A stretch of DNA of 64,000 nucleotides from positions 46,438-110,437 of IMG/VR virus record IMGVR_UViG_3300032323_001119; one strand, 5' to 3'. The position numbers and the translations under genes were made by a program. The stretch is from a virus. Positions 3,456-52,827 of the stretch are shown here, in pieces (the first letter of the stretch is position 1; every line of letters begins with the position of its first letter). The notes under the pieces were generated by a model. That model searched no databases, had not been told where the DNA came from, and saw nothing but the letters and a program-made list of their open reading frames with translations.

Positions 3456-4079
3456 CTAGTAGCTAATCATATCAAATATGAAAGCTGCTCGTATGCTTGA
3501 ATTGTCTATAGAGTGTATCGTGCCCTTTGGCATAAAAAGAATATCATTTTTTTCCATTAAATACTCTTTGTGCTCTCTACCTGTAACATCTATAGGGCTA
3601 CCATATGGGTCATTTTCGTCTGATTCATGAATAACATATCTTGCATTACCTAAAACTTGCGTTAGTAAAACGTGGTGAGGGTCTCTGTGTGGATCTAGCT
3701 GTGGAGTATTTTCTGTCATGTTTACAGCAAGCTTTAAATGGGTATGGAAATCGTCAGAGATGTTAGACAATTCCTGATGAATAGCAAATACTTGATTGTA
3801 TTTTATTGGATCTAGTCCATTATTTCTTTCTAGCAAATCCGTGCAATGAAATGTTAGACCGTGTTTTGCAGCCTGCATTAGGCTTGTAAATTTTTTTTCT
3901 TTGTCATTAAATAGCATTGAGGAGTTTTTATAGCTGTCTCTATGTTCATCTGACAACAAAAAATTGTAAGATATGCTTAAAGTCTTTATTGCATCTTCCC
4001 AATCAAAATTATAATCTAAGCAGGACTTTATAAATACAGGCTTTCCAGTTTTAATTGAATTTTTAATTTCATCTATCAT
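3456..4079 (-). CDS. Cupin/JmjC-like Fe(II)-dependent oxygenase
   Basis: 207 residues from the ATG at 4079, preferred over an upstream in-frame start because AGGAG lies 8 bases before it and the longer form would overlap the FmdB gene. The C-terminal half looks like a double-stranded beta-helix. It has an H-x-D (DPHRDPHHVLLTQVLGNARY) and a later His in FMPKGTIHSIDN, the HxD...H iron-binding triad expected of cupin_8/JmjC-like 2-oxoglutarate oxygenases. The N-terminus is helical with no recognised domain. The substrate is unknown. It belongs to a larger set of Fe/2OG enzymes in this genome but is not of the prolyl-hydroxylase subtype. Confidence 0.6.
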   Translation of the reverse strand: MIDEIKNSIKTGKPVFIKSCLDYNFDWEDAIKTLSISYNFLLSDEHRDSYKNSSMLFNDKEKKFTSLMQAAKHGLTFHCTDLLERNNGLDPIKYNQVFAIHQELSNISDDFHTHLKLAVNMTENTPQLDPHRDPHHVLLTQVLGNARYVIHESDENDPYGSPIDVTGREHKEYLMEKNDILFMPKGTIHSIDNSSIRAAFIFDMISY

Positions 4080-4083
4080 ATAC

Positions 4084-4272
4084 TTAGCTCCTGTGGTCTG
4101 TCTTATAAAATCCGTTACCCTTAAATTGTATTCCAAATGAACTAAAATGTCTAACCATATTTGATTCACACTCTTGGCATAAGTAGCCTGGGTCATCTTC
4201 TGATATTGATCGTGTTACTGAAAGTAGCGCATGGGCATCGTCTTGGCTACACTTGTATTCATATACTGGCAT
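4084..4272 (-). CDS. FmdB-family zinc ribbon protein
   Basis: 62 residues starting MPVYEYKC, the signature of the FmdB/CxxC regulatory-type zinc ribbon family, with a second knuckle CQEC about residues 33-36. AAAAGG precedes the ATG. It lies just upstream of the cupin/JmjC-like gene and downstream of Hsp20. These small proteins occur in bacteria and phages; a DNA- or protein-binding role is presumed, not shown. Confidence 0.8.
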   Translation of the reverse strand: MPVYEYKCSQDDAHALLSVTRSISEDDPGYLCQECESNMVRHFSSFGIQFKGNGFYKTDHRS

Positions 4273-4870: not shown

Positions 4871-5278
4871 CTACTTTTTATTGCTTGATCTTGCTTTTGC
4901 AAGCACTGAAAAGTCTTTAACCTTAGTATCTCCTAGGTATCCCCAGGCATAACCTTCGTCTATCATTTTCTGGTTTATAGATTTATCTGCACCATCTAAA
5001 AAAACCCATCCAAGTATTCGGCCATATTTTTCTGAGGAGTCTATTTTTTCCGTTTTGATTACAATAGTTTTTGCGGAATCAATTGCATTTTTTAAATAAG
5101 CTTTAGATTCTAGACCTAATGCCTTTTCTGCTTTATTTGTTGTTCTGCTTTCTGGCGTATCTATACCAGCAAGCCTAACTCTGGAGCTAAATGAGATATC
5201 AAATCCTAAATCTATATCTACATCTATAGTGTCCCCATCAACTACCTTACTAACTTTTTTGACGTAATATTCAAACAT
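4871..5278 (-). CDS. Thermonuclease (SNase/micrococcal nuclease fold)
   Basis: 135 residues covering one SNase domain: VVDGDTIDV (calcium-binding Asp), RVRLAGIDTPE (catalytic Arg, Asp and Glu), then KYGRILGWVFLDG (second catalytic Arg) and INQKMIDEGYAW. It hydrolyses DNA or RNA in a Ca2+-dependent manner. No signal peptide is visible, so it would act inside the cell, perhaps on host DNA. The ATG overlaps the stop of the upstream GMP-reductase-like gene (TAATG), so the two are translationally coupled. Confidence 0.88.
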   Translation of the reverse strand: MFEYYVKKVSKVVDGDTIDVDIDLGFDISFSSRVRLAGIDTPESRTTNKAEKALGLESKAYLKNAIDSAKTIVIKTEKIDSSEKYGRILGWVFLDGADKSINQKMIDEGYAWGYLGDTKVKDFSVLAKARSSNKK

Positions 5279-6321
5279 TATATTCTGTTACCTGACTCTC
5301 TTAAAGATTGTGGAGATACCTCTATATATTCAAGTGACGACTGCAACTCTTTTATATTGCCCGCGCCTGAATATGTAAAAGCACTTTTTGTATTATTAAG
5401 TATATTCCATAGTCCTTCAAATGCTGGGCCCCTAGACTCTATTTCTCCAGCAACACCTTCAAAATTAAATATAGGATTTTTAATCCCAGACAAACCTTCT
5501 TCTTTTGCAGCAAACTCTTTTGATCCAAGACCTATGAGTGAGTACTTGCCATTCTCAGAACTACACTCATCGTGTCCTGCCAACATATACCCTAGCATTA
5601 CAGCACTTGCACCTGCGCCTAAAGCTTTTACTATATCACCAGATGTTTTTATGCCACCATCTGCAATAATTCCATTGACGCTGTCTTCTTTTACCATTTC
5701 GTATATATTCATAATAGATGATAATGTAGGAGCTCCGAATCCAGTCATTATTCTAGTCGTGCATGCTGCTCCACCCCCGATACCAACCCTAACCGAGTCA
5801 CATCCAGCATCCATTAACATCTTATAGGCACCATATGAAGATACGTTGCCACACATTATATGTGTTGATTTAGGAACAGATTTTCTTAAATGAGATACTG
5901 CATCTGCAACCAGCTTCAAGTGCCCATTTGCAACATCAAGAAGTATTATCTTAATATTGTTTTTAACAATTTTATTTACTGAATCTTGATCGTAAACATC
6001 TTTTATTTTTATAGTTACTGCAACTCTACTAGGATTTACCTCTAATGATTTTTGAATTTTTTCTTCTAGACTGTAAGTCCTAACTGTTGTCCCAATGCAC
6101 CCAGATGTTACCAGTATGGAAAGCATCTCCTTAGAGGAAATGCTTTCCATAGGTGCTGAAATTATAGGGGACTCAAACTCTATAATTGCATCTGGATTAT
6201 TTGGATTACCTATTTTAGTAGTAAGATCAATATGATGTCTACTTAAAAGAGGGGATGAGTCATTTGGAACTAAGAGTATGTCATCAAAACACAATCCGTT
6301 TATGGAAGTATTTTTTTTCAC
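5278..6321 (-). CDS. IMP dehydrogenase / GMP reductase family enzyme
   Basis: 347 residues, GMP-reductase-like in length, with no CBS pair. The N-terminus INGLCFDDILLVPND is typical of the family. The flavodoxin-like (beta/alpha)8 barrel carries the phosphate loop and catalytic loop (SVRVGIGGGAACTTR, Cys retained; most relatives have GIGPGS), IIADGGIKTSGDIVKALGAGA and VMLGYMLAG. It would interconvert IMP with XMP or GMP using NAD(P). The GGGAAC loop departs slightly from consensus, so the exact reaction (GuaB or GuaC) is open. It starts with GTG, 4 bases after the lysin stop. A purine-salvage or pool-shifting role in infection is inferred. Confidence 0.85.
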   Translation of the reverse strand: MKKNTSINGLCFDDILLVPNDSSPLLSRHHIDLTTKIGNPNNPDAIIEFESPIISAPMESISSKEMLSILVTSGCIGTTVRTYSLEEKIQKSLEVNPSRVAVTIKIKDVYDQDSVNKIVKNNIKIILLDVANGHLKLVADAVSHLRKSVPKSTHIMCGNVSSYGAYKMLMDAGCDSVRVGIGGGAACTTRIMTGFGAPTLSSIMNIYEMVKEDSVNGIIADGGIKTSGDIVKALGAGASAVMLGYMLAGHDECSSENGKYSLIGLGSKEFAAKEEGLSGIKNPIFNFEGVAGEIESRGPAFEGLWNILNNTKSAFTYSGAGNIKELQSSLEYIEVSPQSLRESGNRI

Positions 6322-11980: not shown

Positions 11981-12916
11981 CTACCCCTTCCAAGTTTCAA
12001 CACTTTTAGGGAAAAAGGGTATTCCGTTGCCATGCATTCTTTCATGAACTGAAACCCCTGGAAGATAAACATCTTTTTGGTATAGCCCTAGCAGGTCTTC
12101 AGTTTCTCTAATTATTTCTTGCATTGCTTCCCATTGCTCTTTACCAAACTTTGCTTGACCCTCTTTGTATCTATCTGATCCAGAGTGGTACCATAACAAA
12201 AAGTTTCTAATAAGGTATTTATCTTTATTTTTTAATGGAAAAGCTGCATGAAAGAATGGTTTTGCAGACGGGAATATAATCATATCCCCCTTTTCTGGTT
12301 TATAGTTTACTATGGTGCTATCAAATTCGTTTAGGAAAGATATTTCTCCACCTTCATAATCATCATTTAAATAAATTGTTCCAGTAATAATAGCCTTTGG
12401 TCCAGCTGCATCTTTTGAATTAAATGCATCTAGATGATATCCAATAGCAAGCTCAAGGCCTTCTATTTGGTGATCATGCCTTAAAAATTCAACTGATCCT
12501 TTTAACCAGCCCTCTTCTCCTTCGCTTCCACTAAACTTATCAAAATTTTCCCAGTCGCTTGCAAATTCTCCAAAGACATACTTCCAGTCGTCATGATATG
12601 TTGCATTTGGATTTATATACTTTTTAATTATATCGTCGTGAACCCATTCTGATATATAATCTTTGTAGCCAGAAATTAATGTGTCATTAACTGTGTTATA
12701 CACCTCTAGATGCTTTTTTTCTTCTTCAGTTAAGTTATGATTCCCACTAAAATTCATTCTAGTTCTTGTGCCTAGCTCATACCATGGCTCCCACTCTAAA
12801 AATATATTAGATGTATTGAAGCTTTTAACTGATTCTAAAAGCCCATCTACATCTTCAAAAACGTTTTTATATAGATTAACAAAAGGTATGATTGTTTTTT
12901 TATTAGATAAGTTCAT
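11981..12916 (-). CDS. 2OG-Fe(II) oxygenase, prolyl 4-hydroxylase type
   Basis: 311 residues, the largest of this family here. The catalytic core carries the complete site: H-x-D in AIGYHLDAF, the family motif YLNDDYEGGEISF, the distal His in KPFFHAAFP and the 2OG-binding Arg in YLIRNFLLW. It would use Fe(II), O2 and 2-oxoglutarate to hydroxylate a substrate, commonly Pro in proteins, though phage substrates are unknown. It overlaps the Hjc-like nuclease gene by 14 bases. It sits with a second paralogue (13222-14028) inside the recombination region rather than in the main cluster at 54-58 kb. Confidence 0.85.
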   Translation of the reverse strand: MNLSNKKTIIPFVNLYKNVFEDVDGLLESVKSFNTSNIFLEWEPWYELGTRTRMNFSGNHNLTEEEKKHLEVYNTVNDTLISGYKDYISEWVHDDIIKKYINPNATYHDDWKYVFGEFASDWENFDKFSGSEGEEGWLKGSVEFLRHDHQIEGLELAIGYHLDAFNSKDAAGPKAIITGTIYLNDDYEGGEISFLNEFDSTIVNYKPEKGDMIIFPSAKPFFHAAFPLKNKDKYLIRNFLLWYHSGSDRYKEGQAKFGKEQWEAMQEIIRETEDLLGLYQKDVYLPGVSVHERMHGNGIPFFPKSVETWKG

Positions 12917-32445: not shown

Positions 32446-32894
32446 TATACTTCTTCCAGTGAAATAGATACATCCCAAAATGCCTGTGGAGCATCAGATA
32501 TTTTTTCTTTTACATTTCTTTTAATTAAATTAAATGAGCAGGCTGTAAATGACGCAAGGAATTCCTCTGTTCTTGTAGAGTTATATGCAATTCGTACATT
32601 AAAAGTTCCCTGCCCTTTAGCGCTTAAATAAAATGTTCTTAGGTCTTCTGCCCCCCAAAAGCCATCTACGGTCATTGTAGAGTATGATGGAACCGTGCTC
32701 CATGAGGTAGATACAGTCTTCTTATCGGCTATAAACAGCTTTCTAAGGCTTCCATTGGCCATCCTAGCAGTTCTTTCAAACCTTTGTGTATCTATAGATA
32801 TAGGGGATCTATTATGTTCTGTTAATTGACGCCATGCGTTAGTAGAGTCTTGTATAAACAAGGCTGCACCTACTGGTAAAATTAAAGCTGGCAT
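32445..32894 (-). CDS. Distal tail (Dit-like) protein
   Basis: 149 residues, beta-rich (TVSTSWSTVPSYSTMTVDGF, YNSTRTEEFLASFTACSFNL, FWDVSISLEEV). It directly follows the tape measure and precedes the tail-tip hub, the usual place of Dit. Its end overlaps the hub start. The assignment rests mostly on gene order. Confidence 0.65.
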   Translation of the reverse strand: MPALILPVGAALFIQDSTNAWRQLTEHNRSPISIDTQRFERTARMANGSLRKLFIADKKTVSTSWSTVPSYSTMTVDGFWGAEDLRTFYLSAKGQGTFNVRIAYNSTRTEEFLASFTACSFNLIKRNVKEKISDAPQAFWDVSISLEEV

Positions 32895-35800
32895 TATATA
32901 TTCTTCCCCTGTCCTACCATTTTAACATTAATCTTAGCTTTTTGTCCAATAACAACCTCAGCCTTTTTAACAATCATATTAGACAATGCTTCGACATCCA
33001 TTCCTTCTGATGCGTAAATATTTTGGTTAACAACATAAGAGTTGCCTGAAACAGCACCATCTCTTACATTATACTGAGCTTGGTTAAAATTATATCTTGG
33101 CGATGCCGCTGCTAATGTATTCATTACATCGTTTGGCATAATATTTGCTTTATTCTTTAAGTGTACAAACTCTGGTCCTCTTTCTCCAACCAGGAACATT
33201 CCGCTTGCATTTTCAACACCAGTGGCAGCCTTACCTGCAAAGACTATGTTACCGTCTTTTTTGCTTCTTGAATATTTTTGTCCATTCCAAATAAATGTTT
33301 CGCCTAGCTGCAAGTCTAGTCTATCTTTAATTGCATCACGAGCCTGTGCATTAAGAACCTTTATCTTTTTACCATCAAATTCTTTTTCTTCCAGCTGGTT
33401 GCTGTAGTTACCAGTAACCTTTATATTTCTTCTTAGCGTAGGATCTCCATTTGCACCCTTTATGGCATTTACAACATCCTTAAGAGTTGCCCCACCCTTA
33501 ATACTATTTGCGAGTGCTTCATTAACTCCTGCGCCAGTTCCAGATTTTAATAGAAGGTCTAGTGCATTTTGTTGTGGAGAAACTGGAACCTTAGTTGTAG
33601 TTGTAACTGGGCCAGTAGATGTTAATTCAGTAGTAGTTTTTGTTGTATATCTTGGCATTTTTTCGCCAGTTACGGCTTCCATTGCAGCCACAAATCCTGC
33701 TGCTGCTTCTTTATTTTTCTTCACATACTCTTGAATTGATTGTCCAGCTGCAGCTGCATTTCCGTAAAGAGCAGTCATAGAATCATTAACCTTTTTAATA
33801 GCAGCTTCCTGCTTATCATATCTAGACTTAAGCTTATCTAAACTTTCTCCAGCAATTGCTGCCGAATCAGAAAGTTTTTGCTGCTTATCTCCTAGCGCTT
33901 CAGCGGCTGCTTTAAGAGGCTTGTTAGCTGCTTCTGTAGCTTTATCTATTGCTCTCATCTGTGCTTCTGTTTGTTGCTGAGAAGTTAAAGACTCTAAATC
34001 AATTCTTAAGCTTTGCGCCTTCTCAGTGTCTCCAGTTGCGGCAGCATTTTGCATTTCAATTCTAGTTTTTTCAATTTGTCTTCCTAGATCTGCGTCTTGC
34101 TGTGCTGCCGACAAAGCCTTCTTTCTTGCTTCTGCAAGCTTATTGTTTGCATCTATTTGCTTGTTTAAAGCCTTTAGTCTATCTCTATCAGAAATTTGCT
34201 GAGCAACAGTCTGTCCCTTAAGGGCCTTTGTGTAGTTTGCAATTTGGCCCTTTAGTTTATCTAGGCTTGCATACTGCTCTTTTAGTATTCCAGTTCTATT
34301 TGTAGACTGTACTGAATCTGATATTGCTGCAAAAGAGTCTGCGATTACTTTAGTTTGTGCTGCGTTTAATGCAGAAAGATCTCCGTTAAATCCTTGTGCT
34401 TGAAGTCTAATTTTTTGCCAAACACTGACAATGGTGTCAGAACCATTAATCATCTTCTTTACTTCAGGATTTGTCTTAGCCATTTCATTAATAGTGCCTT
34501 GTGTAATTGCTGTACCAGCTTCTCTAGACTTGTTTATTTTGTCTATCATTATCTTTTCAGCTTCTGCATATGTAAGAGACTTTGTCTTACCGCTTAAATC
34601 TTTAGCAACAAGTCTTTCTCTTTTGGCAATTAAATCATTGATTCCAGTTTCAGTTGCCATAAGAGCAGTATTTAAAGATGCCGCCTTTTCTTTATTTCCC
34701 TGATCTCTTGTATCAGCACCAAAGCTAGTAACTGCTGAAACTGCTGCAGATTGTGGATCGGTAATTGCTTTGAACTGTGCATTACCCATTGTTGCAGTAA
34801 TTGATTGATCTTTTTTATTTGACAGCTGAAGCATAGTATAAACTTTTTTAGTTGCCTCATCTGCAGACATTCCAGCTGCAATTAGCTGCTCTTTAATTCT
34901 ACGTACAGCATCAGGCACCTTGTTTGAAGGCTGTCTATCTAGTGCTTTAATCTGCTCTCCAAAAGTTTCTTTTACTTCTTTCTTTAATTCTTTGTATTCT
35001 GCAATTGTCATCTGGAATGGAGTCCCGCCATCTTTCATGCTTTCATACACAAGCTTATTTGCAGCCGCCATATCCTTGGCATCCTGAATAGTATCTTTAA
35101 TTTTTGATCCGAAGTCTGTAAATCTTAGGTTAGCTTTTTTAGCTGCTTCTGCAGTCATTCCAAATGTAGATATATTAAGTTCTTGTCCCTTTTTGTAGTT
35201 CTGCCACATCTTGTATCCAGCAATACCTGCTAGAGTTACTGCTGCTAGTGGGGCAACTAGTCCTGCTGCTGCAGCTGCGGTTGCACCAAATCCAGCTGAT
35301 GCCATTCCTGCTGTTGCTGCACTTGCTGCAGCACGTTTTGCAACCATTCCGCCTATGCCTTTTATAAGAGATGGGCCAGCCATTGATCCAACCATTGAGC
35401 CCATCATCATTCCATTTTGTCCACCAAGGGCATTTCCTATTGCTCCCCCTGCTGCCATTCCACCCATAGTGCCAAGCATCATGCCTCCAGCGCCTTGGCC
35501 TAGTTCTGGGTTTACGACACCCTTTGCTCTCATATATTGAACTGGATGTAACATTGCTGATGTAGAATAACGAGCATTTGCCATAAACGATCTTCTAATT
35601 GCATTATCTGCTCTGGATGCTGGAACTTCATTGCCACGTCTATCTATATATGCTGGATTAAAAATTGCTCCTGGAGCATTAGCAGCTATTGATCTTTCTT
35701 CTCCAATTTTATTTTTGCGATTCTGTATCATCCCAGCAGTTCTATATCCTGAATCTTTTATTCTAGTCCCAAGTGAGCTTATACTTGATGATATATCTGA

Positions 35801-38800
35801 AGCTGCAATTCTAGCACTTGTTATTAATCTTGTAGATGCTGCCTTAAGTCCATTAGAGATAGAAGAAAATGCTGAATCTATTGCTACGTTAGCTCTTTGT
35901 AATGGAAGCTTTAACCCTGGCATGTAAGGCAAAGATCCTTGCAGTGTAGGAACATTTGTCACTACACCCTTTCCACCAACAAATGAAGTTGTCCCTACAG
36001 ATAGTGGCCCAGGCTTAGGTGGAGTAGTAGCAACTGGCATCGGTGCTCTTGATGCATTAAGGTTGTTTAAATAAAGCTGTCCTATTGCCCTCTGACTTGG
36101 ATCTCCTGATTTTAAAAGACGGTTAGCATGCTCTTTAGATGTAACTTGGCTAACATCAGAAACCTTTTCGCCATAACCTATTTTACTAGATTTGACTATA
36201 CCGCCTAGCATAAATCCTGGAATTATCTTGCCGCTCTGTTGTGGGCTAAATATTTCTGGACCCTTTTCTCCAACTAAATAGCTTTGTCCTGGAGATACTG
36301 GTCCTCCCATTTCTCTTTTACCATCAATGCCAAATATCTTTTTCTTAAGATCGTCTGTAATTGGTGTATTCTTTTTTGAATCCCAATTTAAGTATTTTTT
36401 CTTTAAAATATCTTTATCTATTGGAGAAAGTTGTTTTAAAACATTTCTGTCTGAAATCATATCGCTGGCAGCAGATCTAATTACTGCATCTAAAGCGTCT
36501 GGCTCAAGTCCATTCTTCAGTGTGCCGTCTGGCATCTTTACATAGCCATAAGGCTTTTCTTTTGCTAAAGCTGCTGCAAACTTATCGTATAAAAGCTTTT
36601 GAGTATTTTTTCTTAATCCAGTTCCAGCAAACAGCGTTTCTGCCATTTTAATTGATAAGGAGTTTACTCCCCATGGAGCAGATTCATACATGCTAGGTTT
36701 AGGGGCACCAGTTGGTCCAAAACCTGCACCTATTCTTCTCATGGCTATACCCTTTAAGACATTGCCAATTATTCCTCCACCATTAAATCCGTTTAGAGGA
36801 GTCTTAAAAGAATTGTCGCTTAGAGATATTGCATGACCTCTTTGACGTATTCTTAATTCAGCTTCGTCTTTTAACTTCTTTAATGCTGCTGGTGTAAGTG
36901 CCTTAGCTTTTGCAATTTCAACAGAAGAATGAATTCCATGGAACTCTTGCCAATTAACTGCTCTTCCATCTTCTAGCCTTTTAATCATTGCAGCATAAGC
37001 TTTAGCTTCATCTGGAGTTAAATCAAATCTTGATATGGTAGTCTTTAGTCTTGGTAGAACTGCATCAATTTCATCAATCATTGCTTTATGATATTGATCT
37101 GGAGTCATACCCTTTGGAATTGACAATGTGGACTCTGCAAAGAATCTCTTTGCTCCGCCCTTTACTCCGAGCAAGTTAATACGTGCCTGCTCTTTCATCG
37201 AAATCATTTCTTCTTCATAGGCTCTTTTACCAGAAGCCATCTTAAATACTCCAGCCGTTCCAACATCAGCCAATGTGCTTCCAGAAAGATTATCTCTACT
37301 TAAATCTCTATCTCCTCTTAAATTAGCTGCAACTAATTGCTTAAAGTAATCTTCTCGTGTAAATGATCCTGACTTATTTACAAATGCTTCGTCATAAGGA
37401 GACTCTAGTACAAGCAGCTTTCTCTTTCCAGTTGGATCTGTAGGGTCAAGCATGGTTCTAATTTCTTGTCTTGGAGCATTTAATCCATGTGCATCTCTTG
37501 CAATAATAGTTGCACGTTGCTCTGCTAGGGCTGCAGTTTCATCCATTACTGGTTTAACAAATACTTTAGTTCCATCTGGTTTTTCATAAACTCCACCAAT
37601 TCCAGAAACTGGGAAGCTTCTTCCAGATGAAGGAGAAATTAGTTTTCCAAAGTCTGTTGGAGGCATTGAAGCAAATCTGCTTGTACTCAAAGATTGGCTT
37701 ATTTCATCCATCTGCATTCTTGCGTTTCTTTGTTGCTCTACAGCTTTAAATGATCTAGGCATTCCAAGGAAAAGCTTGCCGTATCCGTACTTGCCTTTCT
37801 TTACCATACCGCCGATCATACCGCCAGCATTAGCAGCTCTAAGTCTTCTTCCTCCAACCATTGCAAACATCTGTCTCTCAGCTTTTCTAGGTTTTGCTGG
37901 AGTTCCAGACTCTCTAAATATTTTCATGTCAGCACCCAATGCTCTGACTAAGCTTTCTGGTATAGGACCTTTACCAGTCCATCTGCCAGTAGAAATCCAT
38001 TTTTCAATAACTGGTATATGTCTTTTAAAATCATCTACATCTTTAAATCCAAATGAAGTTGCAAGCCTGTGTGCTCTAGCTATAGCCTCATCTTTGGTAA
38101 GCGGAACTACGTCATCAATAATTTTTCTTTGCTCTAACCTGTTTCCAAATTTGTTAAAGTCATCATGGGCAGCTTCTCCGTAATAGCCTCGTGCAGCTAT
38201 AGGCCCAGACATTCTTTCTATATGTGCACGATCCCAGCCTGGATTTATGACAGCACCAGGGAACTTTGCTTTTAAAAGATTAAGTATTTGAAGCTTTGCT
38301 CTATTATTATTTTTTGCTGCACCTGCTTTTGCCAGCTTCCAATCTTTGTCTGTTTGTCCTGGCTTTCTTTCAAGCACAAGATCTGGGAAATTCTTTTGCA
38401 TGTAGGCTCTTTGTGCCTCAACATAGCTCATTCCTTTACCAGTTCTTAGATACTCTTCATGACTTGCCAAGGCAAGTCTTACGGCTTTTTCTGCTTCTGC
38501 AATTGCTCTTGAAGGAGTCATATTCATGTCTTTTGAATACTGCAGTATTGCAGTTGCATCATTTTGAATTAAGTTAGGAACAATATGATCTACATAAGGA
38601 GTTCTAACTCCAGTTAGATGATCTATGTACTGAGATGCTTTTTGAAGCTCAGACATCCCTCTTGCTGGACCGTCAAACATGTCTTGCATCTTGCCATAAT
38701 TTCTAATTCCTCTTGTTACCATGCCACCCAAAATTCCGCCATTATTTCTTAGTTGGACTCTTGATCCACTATTAGCTTTATCTAGCAAAGGCTTGTTGGC

Positions 38801-41755
38801 TGCTGTAAACTCTGGGTCGAAATAAGTTTCTCTAGGTGTGAGAATCGCATCTATAACTTTGCCCCCACGATTGTATCCATTTGATGCCATTCTAACTAAA
38901 TCAGGATTATTACGTGAAGCTTCTTGATTCAATATGTAGCTTCCTTCTGGAAGTCTTGCTGGAACCATATCATAATCAATATTTGATGGGCCTGGGACTA
39001 TTGAACCATGCTTTGATGGATCATAAACTAATCCTCCAGTATTTAGCTGTCTAGGTTTTGTAGTCTGAATACTATACCCTGCGCCTGATGTTCTAACGCC
39101 AAGCCCACGAGCAATTGAATCTACAAGCTTAGAAGTTTCTGTTTTGTGAAAAAGCTCTTTCATGTTTGACTTGCCTGCTGCGCTTACAACTGGCTGTGTC
39201 GTTAATGGAACTGTAGTTAAACTCAAGGTTCTTGCCTGTGCTGTTGCAACACCTTGAGCCGTTTGAACCATCATTGCTTCTACTTGTGCATTTAATGCAA
39301 ATATTTTTGCTCTTGCTGCTTCTACTGTAATCTTACCAGCTTGCAACTGTTTAACAATTAATGCTGTTTCGTCTGCCGCTAAAGATGTTATCTTTGTCAT
39401 TTGTGGCAAAAGTGCCTGATATGAATCTGATAATGATGCGGTTACTGTACCAGTTGCTGCTATTTCAGTCTTAAGTGTTGCTAATTCTGCTTTTGACTGC
39501 ATAGCAATTGCTGCTGTCATTGAGTGCCACTTAGCAGCTTCTGCTGCAACTACACCAGTAGATACACCGTTTACAGAACTCAGCCCTTGAACTCTTGGCA
39601 GATCATCTGACATGTAAAGTTGTGGGGCATTCGAAATTCTTTGATTTACTGGCTTTGGACCTGGTACTGTAGAGAATATTGTTTCTTCTGCTCTTTGCTG
39701 TGGCGTCTTTGATCCAGTTGGAATCATGTGAGACATGTCTCTAGAATATGCTCTACCTACAAGAGGATTATTCTTATCTACTATTCTTCCTCCGCCTGCC
39801 ATTACTGGGTTTCCAGCAACAGTAGACATACTATTGGATGTAGCAATAGTCGAACTCATTGCGCTTTGCTTTAGTCTATCAAATGATGCCGCAAGGGTCA
39901 TTACTGCATCTGAGAATGTAGCAGCAGCTTTTGTATCGCTATAGAATGATTGCTCTACTGTTTTGGCAGCAGCAGATGCTGCCATTAATTCTGGTGTTAA
40001 TAATTTAAAGCCAGTCCCACCCTTACCGATGTTCTTAAGGGCTAATATTCCTTTTATTATATATCCGAAGAAGTTTGCAAGCACACCAGTAAGCATGATT
40101 ATAGGACCAGCAATTGCTGTAAGTCCACCAATAAATCCTAGAACAGCTTTAATTGGACCTGGCAGATTTCCAATAAACTTTAAAATTCCATCTATAGCAT
40201 TTAATACAAATGCACCAATTTTTAAGAATTGTTCTCCAACTACCGCAAGTTCTGCTTTTACAGATTCAAGTGCTCTTCTGTATTTACCAGATGCAGATTC
40301 TGTAAGCGCTGTTAATTCTCGTGCTGAAATTGCTGCTAAGTCTTGTGTGCTTGCTTTCATCAGGTCTAAAACTTGAAGAGTCTGGCTTCCTTCTTTACCA
40401 AGGTTTTCAAACAATGCGTTGATTCTAGCAAATTGAAATTTACCGAATAGCTGTTCAATTGCTCTTGCTCTTTGTAGAGGCTCAAGTGAATCTAGGGAAT
40501 CCTTGAGTGCCATAATTGTTCCAGTTAGATTTCCAGCATTTTTATTTACAATGCCAGACAAGTCTATTCCGAATCCCATAAACATTTCTTTGGCAACCTT
40601 TGTAGGGTTAATTACAGATGCTAAAGCTGACTTTAATGCGTTGGCACTTTCTGATGCGTTAATTCCACCTTCACGCATAGCAGTTAGATAAAGAGCAAGG
40701 TCTTGTACTTCTCCACCAAGTGCTTTTACTACTGGGCCTGCTTTTGGAATAGCAGTTACTAAATCATCTAGAGTAGTAGATGTCTGGTTTTCAACTGCGT
40801 TCAAGAAGTCGATTGACTCGGCAAGTTCCATTGTATTTTGTCCGAAGGCTGTTTGAATAGCAAGCGTAGCCTTCATAGCTTCTTGTCTATCTACTTCACC
40901 AAGAATTGCAAGTCTAGTTGTTTGTCTTGTAGAGTCTATAAGATCTGCGCCCTGTTTTCCAGTAGCAGCAATATCTGCGGCAAGTGCAATAGTTTCTGTA
41001 AAGTTTGCTCCTAATCCAGAAGCTAATTCTCTAGATACTGCCATAACATCTTTACGAACCTGAAGAAGATCGGCACTTGATGTTGCAACTAATCCGCCAT
41101 AAACCTTTGTAAGTCTTACAAGCTCTTCATCTGCTTGTCTAAATGCTTTTGCTGCAGCCATACCAAACGCTGCAAGTGGCACAGTTAATCCTACTGTTAA
41201 CTGGCGACCAGCCCACTGTGTATTCTTACCCCAATTGATAAGCTGATTCGATCCATCCATCATTACCTTGTTCATGATGGCAAGTTCTTGTCTTAGAAGA
41301 GCTGACTTATTTTTTGTAACGTCTAGTCCAGATTGAACCATTACGTTATATTGCATTAAGCCTTGTGCATTTTTACCAAGCGGCTGGATAATTGAATTCT
41401 CAAGCATTACCTGCTGCTTAGCAAGGTCTCGAACTAAATTGCTAGTCTTCTGTGTATGTCCTTGCCATGTTCTGAAGTACTGGCCAAGCTTCATTCTGCC
41501 GCTGTCTAAATTTTGTCCAAACTTAGATACGTCTGATGTAAGAGTTACGAAGTGTCTAGAAAACTGGCCAGTGGAGCGCATGGTTTCGTCAAACTGACGA
41601 TTCATGACTCCAACCTGGCTAGTTAGGTTTTTATTTAAACCAATTGTTGTAGCTTGGAGTTTTAAGAGTTGCGAAGTAACCGCTTGTAACTGCGCTGTTA
41701 GGCTAGAAAAATTAGCCGTCGCAGTTATGTTGGTTACTATATTTTGATCTGCCAA
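32894..41755 (-). CDS. Tape measure protein with inserted modules
   Basis: 2953 residues, TTG start with AGGAG 6 bases upstream. Coiled-coil N-terminus, a TP901-type PhageMin_Tail core (about residues 200-400: ELASGLGANFTETIALAADI), hydrophobic membrane-like segments (about residues 520-570 and 2120-2190), TMP motifs YLVGEKGPEIF and FLVGERGPEF, and a long coiled-coil end. Unusually, residues about 1010-1860 hold three globular inserts separated by glycine-rich joints (GGMVTRGIRNYGKM, GGMVKKGKYGYGKL, GGGIIGNVLKGI, GGIVKSSKIGYGEK); the second looks kinase-like. It sets the tail length and probably helps DNA entry. Confidence 0.93.
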   Translation of the reverse strand: MADQNIVTNITATANFSSLTAQLQAVTSQLLKLQATTIGLNKNLTSQVGVMNRQFDETMRSTGQFSRHFVTLTSDVSKFGQNLDSGRMKLGQYFRTWQGHTQKTSNLVRDLAKQQVMLENSIIQPLGKNAQGLMQYNVMVQSGLDVTKNKSALLRQELAIMNKVMMDGSNQLINWGKNTQWAGRQLTVGLTVPLAAFGMAAAKAFRQADEELVRLTKVYGGLVATSSADLLQVRKDVMAVSRELASGLGANFTETIALAADIAATGKQGADLIDSTRQTTRLAILGEVDRQEAMKATLAIQTAFGQNTMELAESIDFLNAVENQTSTTLDDLVTAIPKAGPVVKALGGEVQDLALYLTAMREGGINASESANALKSALASVINPTKVAKEMFMGFGIDLSGIVNKNAGNLTGTIMALKDSLDSLEPLQRARAIEQLFGKFQFARINALFENLGKEGSQTLQVLDLMKASTQDLAAISARELTALTESASGKYRRALESVKAELAVVGEQFLKIGAFVLNAIDGILKFIGNLPGPIKAVLGFIGGLTAIAGPIIMLTGVLANFFGYIIKGILALKNIGKGGTGFKLLTPELMAASAAAKTVEQSFYSDTKAAATFSDAVMTLAASFDRLKQSAMSSTIATSNSMSTVAGNPVMAGGGRIVDKNNPLVGRAYSRDMSHMIPTGSKTPQQRAEETIFSTVPGPKPVNQRISNAPQLYMSDDLPRVQGLSSVNGVSTGVVAAEAAKWHSMTAAIAMQSKAELATLKTEIAATGTVTASLSDSYQALLPQMTKITSLAADETALIVKQLQAGKITVEAARAKIFALNAQVEAMMVQTAQGVATAQARTLSLTTVPLTTQPVVSAAGKSNMKELFHKTETSKLVDSIARGLGVRTSGAGYSIQTTKPRQLNTGGLVYDPSKHGSIVPGPSNIDYDMVPARLPEGSYILNQEASRNNPDLVRMASNGYNRGGKVIDAILTPRETYFDPEFTAANKPLLDKANSGSRVQLRNNGGILGGMVTRGIRNYGKMQDMFDGPARGMSELQKASQYIDHLTGVRTPYVDHIVPNLIQNDATAILQYSKDMNMTPSRAIAEAEKAVRLALASHEEYLRTGKGMSYVEAQRAYMQKNFPDLVLERKPGQTDKDWKLAKAGAAKNNNRAKLQILNLLKAKFPGAVINPGWDRAHIERMSGPIAARGYYGEAAHDDFNKFGNRLEQRKIIDDVVPLTKDEAIARAHRLATSFGFKDVDDFKRHIPVIEKWISTGRWTGKGPIPESLVRALGADMKIFRESGTPAKPRKAERQMFAMVGGRRLRAANAGGMIGGMVKKGKYGYGKLFLGMPRSFKAVEQQRNARMQMDEISQSLSTSRFASMPPTDFGKLISPSSGRSFPVSGIGGVYEKPDGTKVFVKPVMDETAALAEQRATIIARDAHGLNAPRQEIRTMLDPTDPTGKRKLLVLESPYDEAFVNKSGSFTREDYFKQLVAANLRGDRDLSRDNLSGSTLADVGTAGVFKMASGKRAYEEEMISMKEQARINLLGVKGGAKRFFAESTLSIPKGMTPDQYHKAMIDEIDAVLPRLKTTISRFDLTPDEAKAYAAMIKRLEDGRAVNWQEFHGIHSSVEIAKAKALTPAALKKLKDEAELRIRQRGHAISLSDNSFKTPLNGFNGGGIIGNVLKGIAMRRIGAGFGPTGAPKPSMYESAPWGVNSLSIKMAETLFAGTGLRKNTQKLLYDKFAAALAKEKPYGYVKMPDGTLKNGLEPDALDAVIRSAASDMISDRNVLKQLSPIDKDILKKKYLNWDSKKNTPITDDLKKKIFGIDGKREMGGPVSPGQSYLVGEKGPEIFSPQQSGKIIPGFMLGGIVKSSKIGYGEKVSDVSQVTSKEHANRLLKSGDPSQRAIGQLYLNNLNASRAPMPVATTPPKPGPLSVGTTSFVGGKGVVTNVPTLQGSLPYMPGLKLPLQRANVAIDSAFSSISNGLKAASTRLITSARIAASDISSSISSLGTRIKDSGYRTAGMIQNRKNKIGEERSIAANAPGAIFNPAYIDRRGNEVPASRADNAIRRSFMANARYSTSAMLHPVQYMRAKGVVNPELGQGAGGMMLGTMGGMAAGGAIGNALGGQNGMMMGSMVGSMAGPSLIKGIGGMVAKRAAASAATAGMASAGFGATAAAAAGLVAPLAAVTLAGIAGYKMWQNYKKGQELNISTFGMTAEAAKKANLRFTDFGSKIKDTIQDAKDMAAANKLVYESMKDGGTPFQMTIAEYKELKKEVKETFGEQIKALDRQPSNKVPDAVRRIKEQLIAAGMSADEATKKVYTMLQLSNKKDQSITATMGNAQFKAITDPQSAAVSAVTSFGADTRDQGNKEKAASLNTALMATETGINDLIAKRERLVAKDLSGKTKSLTYAEAEKIMIDKINKSREAGTAITQGTINEMAKTNPEVKKMINGSDTIVSVWQKIRLQAQGFNGDLSALNAAQTKVIADSFAAISDSVQSTNRTGILKEQYASLDKLKGQIANYTKALKGQTVAQQISDRDRLKALNKQIDANNKLAEARKKALSAAQQDADLGRQIEKTRIEMQNAAATGDTEKAQSLRIDLESLTSQQQTEAQMRAIDKATEAANKPLKAAAEALGDKQQKLSDSAAIAGESLDKLKSRYDKQEAAIKKVNDSMTALYGNAAAAGQSIQEYVKKNKEAAAGFVAAMEAVTGEKMPRYTTKTTTELTSTGPVTTTTKVPVSPQQNALDLLLKSGTGAGVNEALANSIKGGATLKDVVNAIKGANGDPTLRRNIKVTGNYSNQLEEKEFDGKKIKVLNAQARDAIKDRLDLQLGETFIWNGQKYSRSKKDGNIVFAGKAATGVENASGMFLVGERGPEFVHLKNKANIMPNDVMNTLAAASPRYNFNQAQYNVRDGAVSGNSYVVNQNIYASEGMDVEALSNMIVKKAEVVIGQKAKINVKMVGQGKNI

Positions 41756-46433: not shown

Positions 46434-46460
46434 TTATTACTCCTTTTTCTAGGTAAAACC

Positions 46461-51024: not shown

Positions 51025-52827
51025 TTAGTCAAAAATTCTTACAAAGTTAGGGGTACTGTCAATTCCAGTGTTGCTTTCAGATATGGTAATGCCTGGGTCA
51101 TCCACTAGGAAAGAATTGTCTGAGCAATATAGCTTGTAGTTATGCTGAGCTTCTGACTCAGTAAAGTCTTTTACATAAAACGCTATATTGTTATATGTGC
51201 TTGATGAGCCATATACGGAGCCAGATTGATTTTGATTAAACTTAATATTATCTGCTGCTGAGTCCAAAACAATAACTATATGGTGGGATACTCCCTCAAG
51301 AAGAAATGATGATATATTTGTCTCGTCTGTACGATCTACTCCATTTACATATATTGATTGAATTCCTGTTTTACTAATTAGGCCTGCGCTTGACCATGAA
51401 ATCTCAGATGAGCTTGATGAGAATAATACGTTGTTTGTGCCTCTTGGCGAAAAGAACAATTCTACTGTTTTTGGACTTATTGGAAGATCTACAGAAAATC
51501 CATGACCGTCGTACATTGAAAGTCCATTGTACTTGTTTTGTATTCTGACTGGATAGTTGTAGTAGCCTAAAGAATAGTCATAGTCGGAATATATTTTTGC
51601 GCCAGAATTGTCGGCATAAAGATCGTTATTAGAATATAAATCTATTTCCAACCCATCAAAATATGGTAGGTCGAAAGAAGAGTCTGCTGTTGTCATGGTG
51701 ACACGAATATCTAGTATTGGGCTATTTAAGTTTTCATTTTTATTAAAGTATGGGATAGGAGAATTGTTGTGACAAACTGCCCACTCTTGTCCTGGAACAC
51801 TAACTTCAACTAAAATATTTTTAACATCTTGGCCATATTTAAGTCTAGATGAAACTATTGACTCTGGGTTTGCAACATAAAGTCTTTCTTCAAATGAAAA
51901 AGTTTTTTCTTCTGGCGTTTCCGTTAAAGCAAACTCTATTCTATTTAGTGCTGGGTTGTAATATGCATCTTCTGATACTAAGTCTTCCAATAACTTTATT
52001 CCAGGATATCTATAAGATATGTCTGGTCTTATTGTTAAAGAATTTAAAGAAAACAGGATGCCTTCGTTGGAATAAACAATTTGAGAGTACTTTGTTTCTT
52101 TGTACCCAGCTTTATAATGTTTGTTGGCTATCTCTTCATTAATTTCATAATCATATATGGCTGCTGAATCTACAATAAACCTTTTACCAATATTTGATGG
52201 GCCAATATTTAAGCTAGCGGACTCATTAGTAAACTTAAAACCATTTTCTATAAACTTTTCTGAGGCCAGCTTGCCATCAACATATAGGGACAACTTGTTT
52301 TTTGAAAATACTCCAGCAACATGCATTGCTTGTGTTTTAGTAATTTTGTGGTTTACATATACATCTTCTGAACACTTAAATATAATATTTTCATTTAGAT
52401 AAAATAATCCTATTTGATTTTGTAGGTCACCTAGCACTAAATATTCTTCTAGATCATTCGGGCTTGGGCTAAACCATATTTCAAATGAAAATGGGCTGTC
52501 TGGTCTTTTGTTTGTTGCAACCCCTAAAGCTTTTAGTTGTATTACTGTGTCTTCATTGATTTCAGTTCCTCTAACTCCCGCTCCAATAATAGGGAGAACC
52601 TCCATGTCAGATGTGTTTAGGGCATAGCCTTCCATAGCATTTCCAGAATAATCTATTATGGGCAAACCGCTAATGGCTGCATAAGAAATTCCATTATCTT
52701 TTAAATCTTGATATGTAGAATATAACGTTGTTAAATTAGAGTATACGCCAACTTCACCAGAACGAACTTCGTCTAGCAAAAAAAATGCAAGTGGGTTATC
52801 CTGTAAGACAGTGTATTTATATGACAT
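51025..52827 (-). CDS. LamG/concanavalin-like structural protein
   Basis: 600 residues. Two beta-sandwich stretches resemble LamG-type lectin folds: about residues 90-215 (SPFSFEIWFSPSPND, LSLYVDGKLASEKF) and about 455-560 (KTVELFFSPRGTNNVLFSSS, IQSIYVNGVDRTDETNI). It begins YKYTVLQDNPLAFFLLDEVR, a start often seen in phage surface lectin proteins. It probably binds host or environmental glycans as a head- or tail-attached protein. It follows the collagen/S74 gene by 3 bases. Confidence 0.75.
   Translation of the reverse strand: MSYKYTVLQDNPLAFFLLDEVRSGEVGVYSNLTTLYSTYQDLKDNGISYAAISGLPIIDYSGNAMEGYALNTSDMEVLPIIGAGVRGTEINEDTVIQLKALGVATNKRPDSPFSFEIWFSPSPNDLEEYLVLGDLQNQIGLFYLNENIIFKCSEDVYVNHKITKTQAMHVAGVFSKNKLSLYVDGKLASEKFIENGFKFTNESASLNIGPSNIGKRFIVDSAAIYDYEINEEIANKHYKAGYKETKYSQIVYSNEGILFSLNSLTIRPDISYRYPGIKLLEDLVSEDAYYNPALNRIEFALTETPEEKTFSFEERLYVANPESIVSSRLKYGQDVKNILVEVSVPGQEWAVCHNNSPIPYFNKNENLNSPILDIRVTMTTADSSFDLPYFDGLEIDLYSNNDLYADNSGAKIYSDYDYSLGYYNYPVRIQNKYNGLSMYDGHGFSVDLPISPKTVELFFSPRGTNNVLFSSSSSEISWSSAGLISKTGIQSIYVNGVDRTDETNISSFLLEGVSHHIVIVLDSAADNIKFNQNQSGSVYGSSSTYNNIAFYVKDFTESEAQHNYKLYCSDNSFLVDDPGITISESNTGIDSTPNFVRIFD

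Follow-up and report, generated by a model that had tools for sequence, protein, structure and literature searches.

Why would a phage tape measure protein (TMP) carry the catalytic residues of a kinase? This question is raised by a 64,000-nucleotide stretch of viral DNA (the window; positions 46,438 to 110,437 of IMG/VR virus record IMGVR_UViG_3300032323_001119, 110,437 bases in total), in which an earlier note had placed a kinase-like domain of PI4K/HipA type at about residues 1370 to 1645 of a TMP. We confirm a kinase-like module within this protein, at residues 1345 to 1647 (36815..37723; minus strand, as are all features of this TMP given below), with a confident core at residues 1345 to 1610, delimited by its relatives, AlphaFold2 modeling, and fold searches. 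The encoding open reading frame (ORF), of 2,953 amino acids with a TTG start as called (32894..41755), matched PF10145 in Pfam (E 4e-27) and phrog_10030, "tail length tape measure protein," in PHROGs (E 1.6e-119). It is flanked by an Ig-domain protein at the position of the major tail protein and, on the other side, by a minor tail protein (phrog_2175, phrog_10359), the gene order being major tail protein, TMP, minor tail protein. On these sequence matches and this gene order, the ORF is a TMP.

Conservation of the putative catalytic residues

The motifs RGDRDLSRDN and LADVG and the lysine-bearing GIGGVYEKPDGTKVFVKP, from which the kinase-like domain had been proposed, are all present, with GIGGVYEKPDGTKVFVKP starting at residue 1385 (37603), LRGDRDLSRDN at 1479 (37321), and LADVG at 1495 (37273). 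Lys1401 (37553..37555), the candidate ATP-binding lysine, lies in VFVKP in the third strand of the model, and Glu1412 (37520..37522), in model helix 62-77, is the candidate helix-C glutamate pairing with it. The predicted catalytic loop, D1482-R-D1484-L-S-R-D-N1489 (37289..37312), is followed by D1497-V-G1499 (37259..37267), a predicted DFG-like metal-binding motif. Searches of viral contigs for relatives of the module yielded 42 with the single sequence as query; an alignment raised the number to 233 and another alignment to 366, and at most 80 sequences were taken from each search. Wherever a kinase copy was found within a complete large ORF, that ORF also encoded the TMP N-part.

Among 106 distinct relatives, some pairs of which shared as little as 34% identity, Lys1401, Asp1482, Asp1484, Asn1489, Asp1497, and Gly1499 were identical in all, and Leu1485 in 105; position 1412 was Glu in 104 and Gln in 2. 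Invariant columns were rare in a 55-sequence alignment (1 of 20 for Lys, 1 of 6 for Asn, 3 of 19 for Asp, and 4 of 20 for Gly), Lys1401 and Asn1489 being the sole invariant residues of their kind. The residue-matched chance of K1401, D1484, N1489, D1497, and G1499 all being invariant is about 3e-5, an approximation in which the alignment columns are taken to be independent. As these five residues had been picked from a single sequence ahead of any alignment, their conservation is a fair test of the first reading, and the Lys/D-x4-N/D-x-G layout claimed there held. Judging from the alignments, the predicted catalytic set Lys1401, Glu1412, Asp1484, Asn1489, and Asp1497-x-Gly1499 is intact and comprises the conserved Lys, helix-C Glu, Asp, Asn, and D-x-G of the protein-kinase-like fold superfamily. 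The loop pattern [K/R]-D-L-x-x-x-N resembles ordinary kinases no less than PI4K/HipA; Asp1482 occupies the place of the HRD histidine of ordinary kinases, and the D-x-G lies just 8 residues past the Asn.

Predicted fold

AlphaFold2 gave a model with pLDDT 87.4 and pTM 0.83 from 22 sequences and a confident one from 55 sequences with a trimmed end (pLDDT 94.8, pTM 0.92). In domain numbering, the model runs through strands 27-31, 44-47, and 53-58 (bearing the Lys), helix 62-77 (bearing the Glu), strand 87-92, strand 102-109 with a hinge-like L-E-S end, helix 123-136, the D..N loop, the D-x-G, and helices to residue 266. Q86 in this numbering, an invariant Gln, adjoins the next-to-last strand, not the last. 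In the model, the order of strands and helices is that of kinases, in two lobes: a five-strand N-lobe with helix C, a hinge, and a helical C-lobe.

In two Foldseek searches of the PDB, the top 50 matches were nearly all kinases or kinase-fold proteins, all remote (TM-score at most 0.42). By E-value, CtkA (3akl_C; E 1.1e-3, probability 0.99, TM-score 0.36) ranked first in the second search, and the best TM-scores, 0.38 to 0.42, belonged to Fam20C. JNK (E 3.5e-4) and HipA (probability 0.93) were also matched. In a viral fold library, the best matches were large phage proteins, several of them annotated as ADP-ribosyltransferase or portal protein.

An exchangeable cassette in the middle of the TMP

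The module lies between two Gly-rich linkers, AGGMIGGMVKKGKYGYGKLFLGMP ahead of it (residues about 1309 to 1334; 37754..37831) and NGGGIIGNVLKGIAMRR behind it (about 1656 to 1672; 36740..36790). Linkers similar to the first recur at residues 1006, 1660, and 1851, and Gly-rich linkers repeatedly mark module borders. Module A on one side (residues 1030 to 1310; 37826..38668) and module C on the other (1675 to 1812; 36320..36733) have no family match; the former is replaced in relatives.

Among the scorable TMPs with an N-part 68 to 100% identical to that of the window, 25 carry the kinase module and 36 do not. The TMP of one relative, L184, matches the window to residue 1325 and picks up at 1657, with the post-kinase Gly-rich linker directly after the upstream part; thus the kinase module alone, residues 1326 to 1656, is missing there. 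In L182, one different module of about 240 amino acids replaces module A together with the kinase; in L183, the kinase is present and a module of the L182 type stands in for module A; and L191 has the kinase and lacks module C. Across 109 kinase-bearing TMPs, the correlation between N-part and kinase identities was only moderate (r 0.48), and some pairs stood at 98% versus 48% or at 43% versus 67%. A FastTree phylogeny of the N-part, with 92 kinase-bearing TMPs and 33 without, requires at least seven changes between presence and absence. From these sequence comparisons, the module is one of several exchangeable cassettes in the central part of the TMP, each bordered by Gly-rich linkers.

The median TMP length was 2,973 amino acids with the kinase and 2,216 without. 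Complete TMPs with an N-part at least 68% identical to that of the window range mostly from about 2,040 to about 3,790 amino acids. Should the modules be located in the tube, this spread would call a simple length-ruler model into question.

Proposed role and alternative explanations

We favor, with a probability of about 0.6, the reading that the module is a divergent cassette of kinase fold, competent for catalysis and carried by a modular TMP, and that it would be ejected with the TMP and, once in the cytosol, modify a protein of the host or of a defence system. It has been discussed that TMPs exit the tail together with the DNA or before it and become inserted in the membrane (PMC13277306, PMC11126660), and the TMP of lambda contacts inner-membrane proteins on entry (PMC13190303). 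The kinase domain might be stowed in the tail lumen along with the TMP, probably unfolded or elongated, and would be ejected when the tail opens. By hydropathy, the cassette region sits between two hydrophobic segments, residues 537 to 573 (40037..40147) and 2160 to 2178 (35222..35278), both candidate membrane segments. Should both cross the membrane, the cassettes could gain access to the cytosol; the domain would then fold on the cytosolic side, where ATP is present, and phosphorylate, or otherwise modify with ATP, a host or defence protein as infection starts. Cytosolic delivery is inferred from TMP biology, and the substrate and timing proposed here are likewise putative.

Several points weigh against this proposal. 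The Foldseek E-values are modest, the TM-scores lie below 0.5, and the rmsd is large, so that the fold match is remote. Searches of the module against Pfam, PHROGs, PADLOC, and PDB sequences, with single sequences and profiles, gave chance-level matches only. A folded 30-kDa domain would be hard to fit in the tail lumen, and entry of the domain into the cell, its folding there, and its binding of ATP are inferred rather than observed. The discordance between N-part and kinase could in part reflect rapid divergence instead of exchange.

Kinase-like folds are known to catalyze other transfers, such as AMPylation by SelO and small-molecule phosphorylation by APH, and the module might likewise serve another ATP-dependent chemistry. 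The remoteness of the fold match and the Asp at the place of the HRD histidine would suit this explanation; however, the canonical phosphotransfer positions are all present and conserved, and we consider it unlikely, if deserving of serious attention. It is somewhat less probable that the kinase works late in the virion-producing cell, ahead of tail assembly or while it proceeds, with tail proteins or host factors as possible targets, and that its packaging is only passive. The TMP is made in the cytosol, with ATP at hand, and its gene lies within the late structural gene block, but gain and loss among closely related TMPs speak against a required role in assembly, and the existence of close relatives without the module makes it optional for that process. 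Moreover, a late cytosolic enzyme needs no fusion to a TMP, whereas fusion makes sense for delivery.

Membership of the HipA or PI3/4-kinase family, the affiliation that the earlier note had suggested, appears improbable. The VKP behind a strand and the D-x4-N resemble HipA, and CtkA, which is HipA-like, and HipA itself are among the fold matches, CtkA with the best E-value in its search; Fam20C, on the other hand, reached a higher TM-score. No kinase family, including HipA_C and PI3_PI4_kinase, was among the Pfam matches listed (25 of 29 families in one search), and hhalign detected no match of the module to Escherichia coli HipA, a single-template comparison of low power. The kinase fold and catalytic layout of the original interpretation are thus supported, and its family assignment only loosely so. 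We also considered the polyvalent-protein kinases, which reportedly lack the whole C-terminal subdomain and carry an insert between the catalytic His and Asp. In the present model, helices extend past the D-x-G to about residue 266, and the module has D-x-D, with no His and no insert. With no sequence or profile match found, and with the polyvalent-kinase traits not fitting, the module is kinase-like by layout and predicted fold, and no membership of a named family is demonstrated. A tblastn search of annotated phages, even with a consensus query at E up to 10, returned nothing real, and two scans of bacterial genome contigs found no relatives; the latter relied on short patterns, so bacterial homologs may exist.

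That there is no kinase fold and the motifs are coincidental is very unlikely: a TM-score below 0.5 and the missing family match would allow it, but the order of strands and helices, the spacing of the motifs, their conservation, and the predominance of kinases in the fold lists all agree. Least credible is a dead scaffold or spacer that merely lengthens the TMP, for although TMPs tolerate big changes in length and the kinase-bearing ones are longer, a spacer would not hold K, D, N, and D-x-G invariant at identities down to 34%.

Other enzyme-like cassettes and genomic context

Related TMPs carry further modules that resemble enzymes. An ADP-ribosyltransferase-like R..SSWS..ExE pattern was found in 5 of 144 distinct TMPs, mostly ones without the kinase: L186, where the module with its RG, SSWS, and ExE motifs spans residues 1341 to 1625, L198, L254, L197, and L152 (about 1049 to 1145). 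Pfam and PDB sequence searches with these modules gave no match, and the label reflects the motif pattern alone. The TMP of L167 bears, in addition to the kinase module, a second kinase-type module with HGDMHPGN...DWG (L167:14203-15333, TMP residues 2900 to 3276), which is APH/ABC1-like, with sub-threshold profile matches to ABC1 (E 4e-4) and APH (E 2e-3). It is plausible, if still tentative, that the TMPs of a large phage group are polymorphic effector carriers, in which a conserved measuring and membrane part is combined with interchangeable enzyme cassettes (a new kinase family, ADP-ribosyltransferase-like, APH/ABC1-like, and many without an assigned function), the tail being an injector tuned to host defences.

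The 144 TMPs also contain well over a hundred extra stretches of at least 110 amino acids unmatched by the TMP of the window. Pfam hits in single members of this TMP set included HAD acid phosphatase, CHAP, and, weakly, GNAT and LPD3.

The conserved N-part of the TMP (residues 160 to 620; 39896..41278) served as lineage marker. Residues 157 to 597 share 38% identity with the TMP of Streptomyces phage Karimac, and other TMP relatives are for the most part from Streptomyces, Gordonia, and Rhodococcus phages. The protein encoded at 51025-52827 had matches from Streptomyces phages only. From these phage relatives, the host is likely actinobacterial. Other genes in the window encode an IMP dehydrogenase/GMP reductase (5278-6321), a JmjC-like protein (3456-4196), and a 2OG-Fe(II) oxygenase (11981-12916).

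Relation to known systems

With CtkA/HipA-like atypical kinases, the module shares a lysine strand ending in KP, the D-x4-N, and a later Asp; it differs in the short spacing from the Asn to the D-x-G, in its location inside a phage TMP, and in the lack of a detectable sequence relation (tested for HipA). Fam20C, the Golgi casein kinase closest by TM-score, is a eukaryotic secreted enzyme without a sequence match. The polyvalent proteins of phages and plasmids (PMC5512222) offer a closer parallel in architecture, a kinase-like domain in a large, presumably injected phage protein with exchangeable cassettes; their kinases were reported mostly from elements of Verrucomicrobia-Chlamydia and Bacteroidetes, and that paper nowhere uses the word "tape." In MuF- or portal-fused ADP-ribosyltransferases and T4 Alt (PMC9503650), an enzyme is likewise fused to a virion structural protein and delivered with the DNA, but these are head proteins of another enzyme class, although ADP-ribosyltransferase-like modules do occur in the related TMPs described here.

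Tme and Sle1 of Streptomyces contractile systems (PMC11126660, PMC13277306) also combine a tape-measure-like carrier with a variable functional domain in actinobacteria. They belong, however, to the bacterium's own contractile systems, their functional domain is C-terminal (a nuclease in Tme), and the Sle1 paper does not contain the word kinase. Stanwilliamsviridae TMPs, such as that of Karimac, have the homologous N-part and a similar gene neighborhood, but the Karimac TMP, of 2,099 amino acids, has no match to the kinase module. The "kinase domain" of phage MinS1 provides no precedent, as it is a separate 95-amino-acid ORF and not the MinS1 TMP.

Injected multidomain phage proteins with kinases and ADP-ribosyltransferases are thus already known (PMC5512222, PMC9503650), as are contractile-system effectors that derive from tape measures (PMC11126660, PMC13277306). 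In the literature covered, outside of which lie most subscription papers and preprints, we came across no description of a kinase within a phage TMP. Tail-borne phage enzymes are known mostly as cell wall hydrolases, and enzyme effectors mostly come from heads. A family of kinase fold that is conserved, resides within TMPs, and comes and goes as a cassette would extend the cargo delivered by tails to kinases.

The kinase cassette also bears on the accommodation of a folded domain within a tail tube and on whether TMPs are truly mosaic. A 2023 survey (PMC10684548) found a mosaic signal in TMPs, with genuine recent cases unconfirmed; by sequence comparison, L184 and the window are a candidate case of recent TMP mosaicism. 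That related viruses gain, lose, or replace the module suggests that the tail delivers enzymes besides DNA. Since defences meet tape measures at entry (SNIPE, PMC13190303), a kinase acting at that time would be well placed against such systems.
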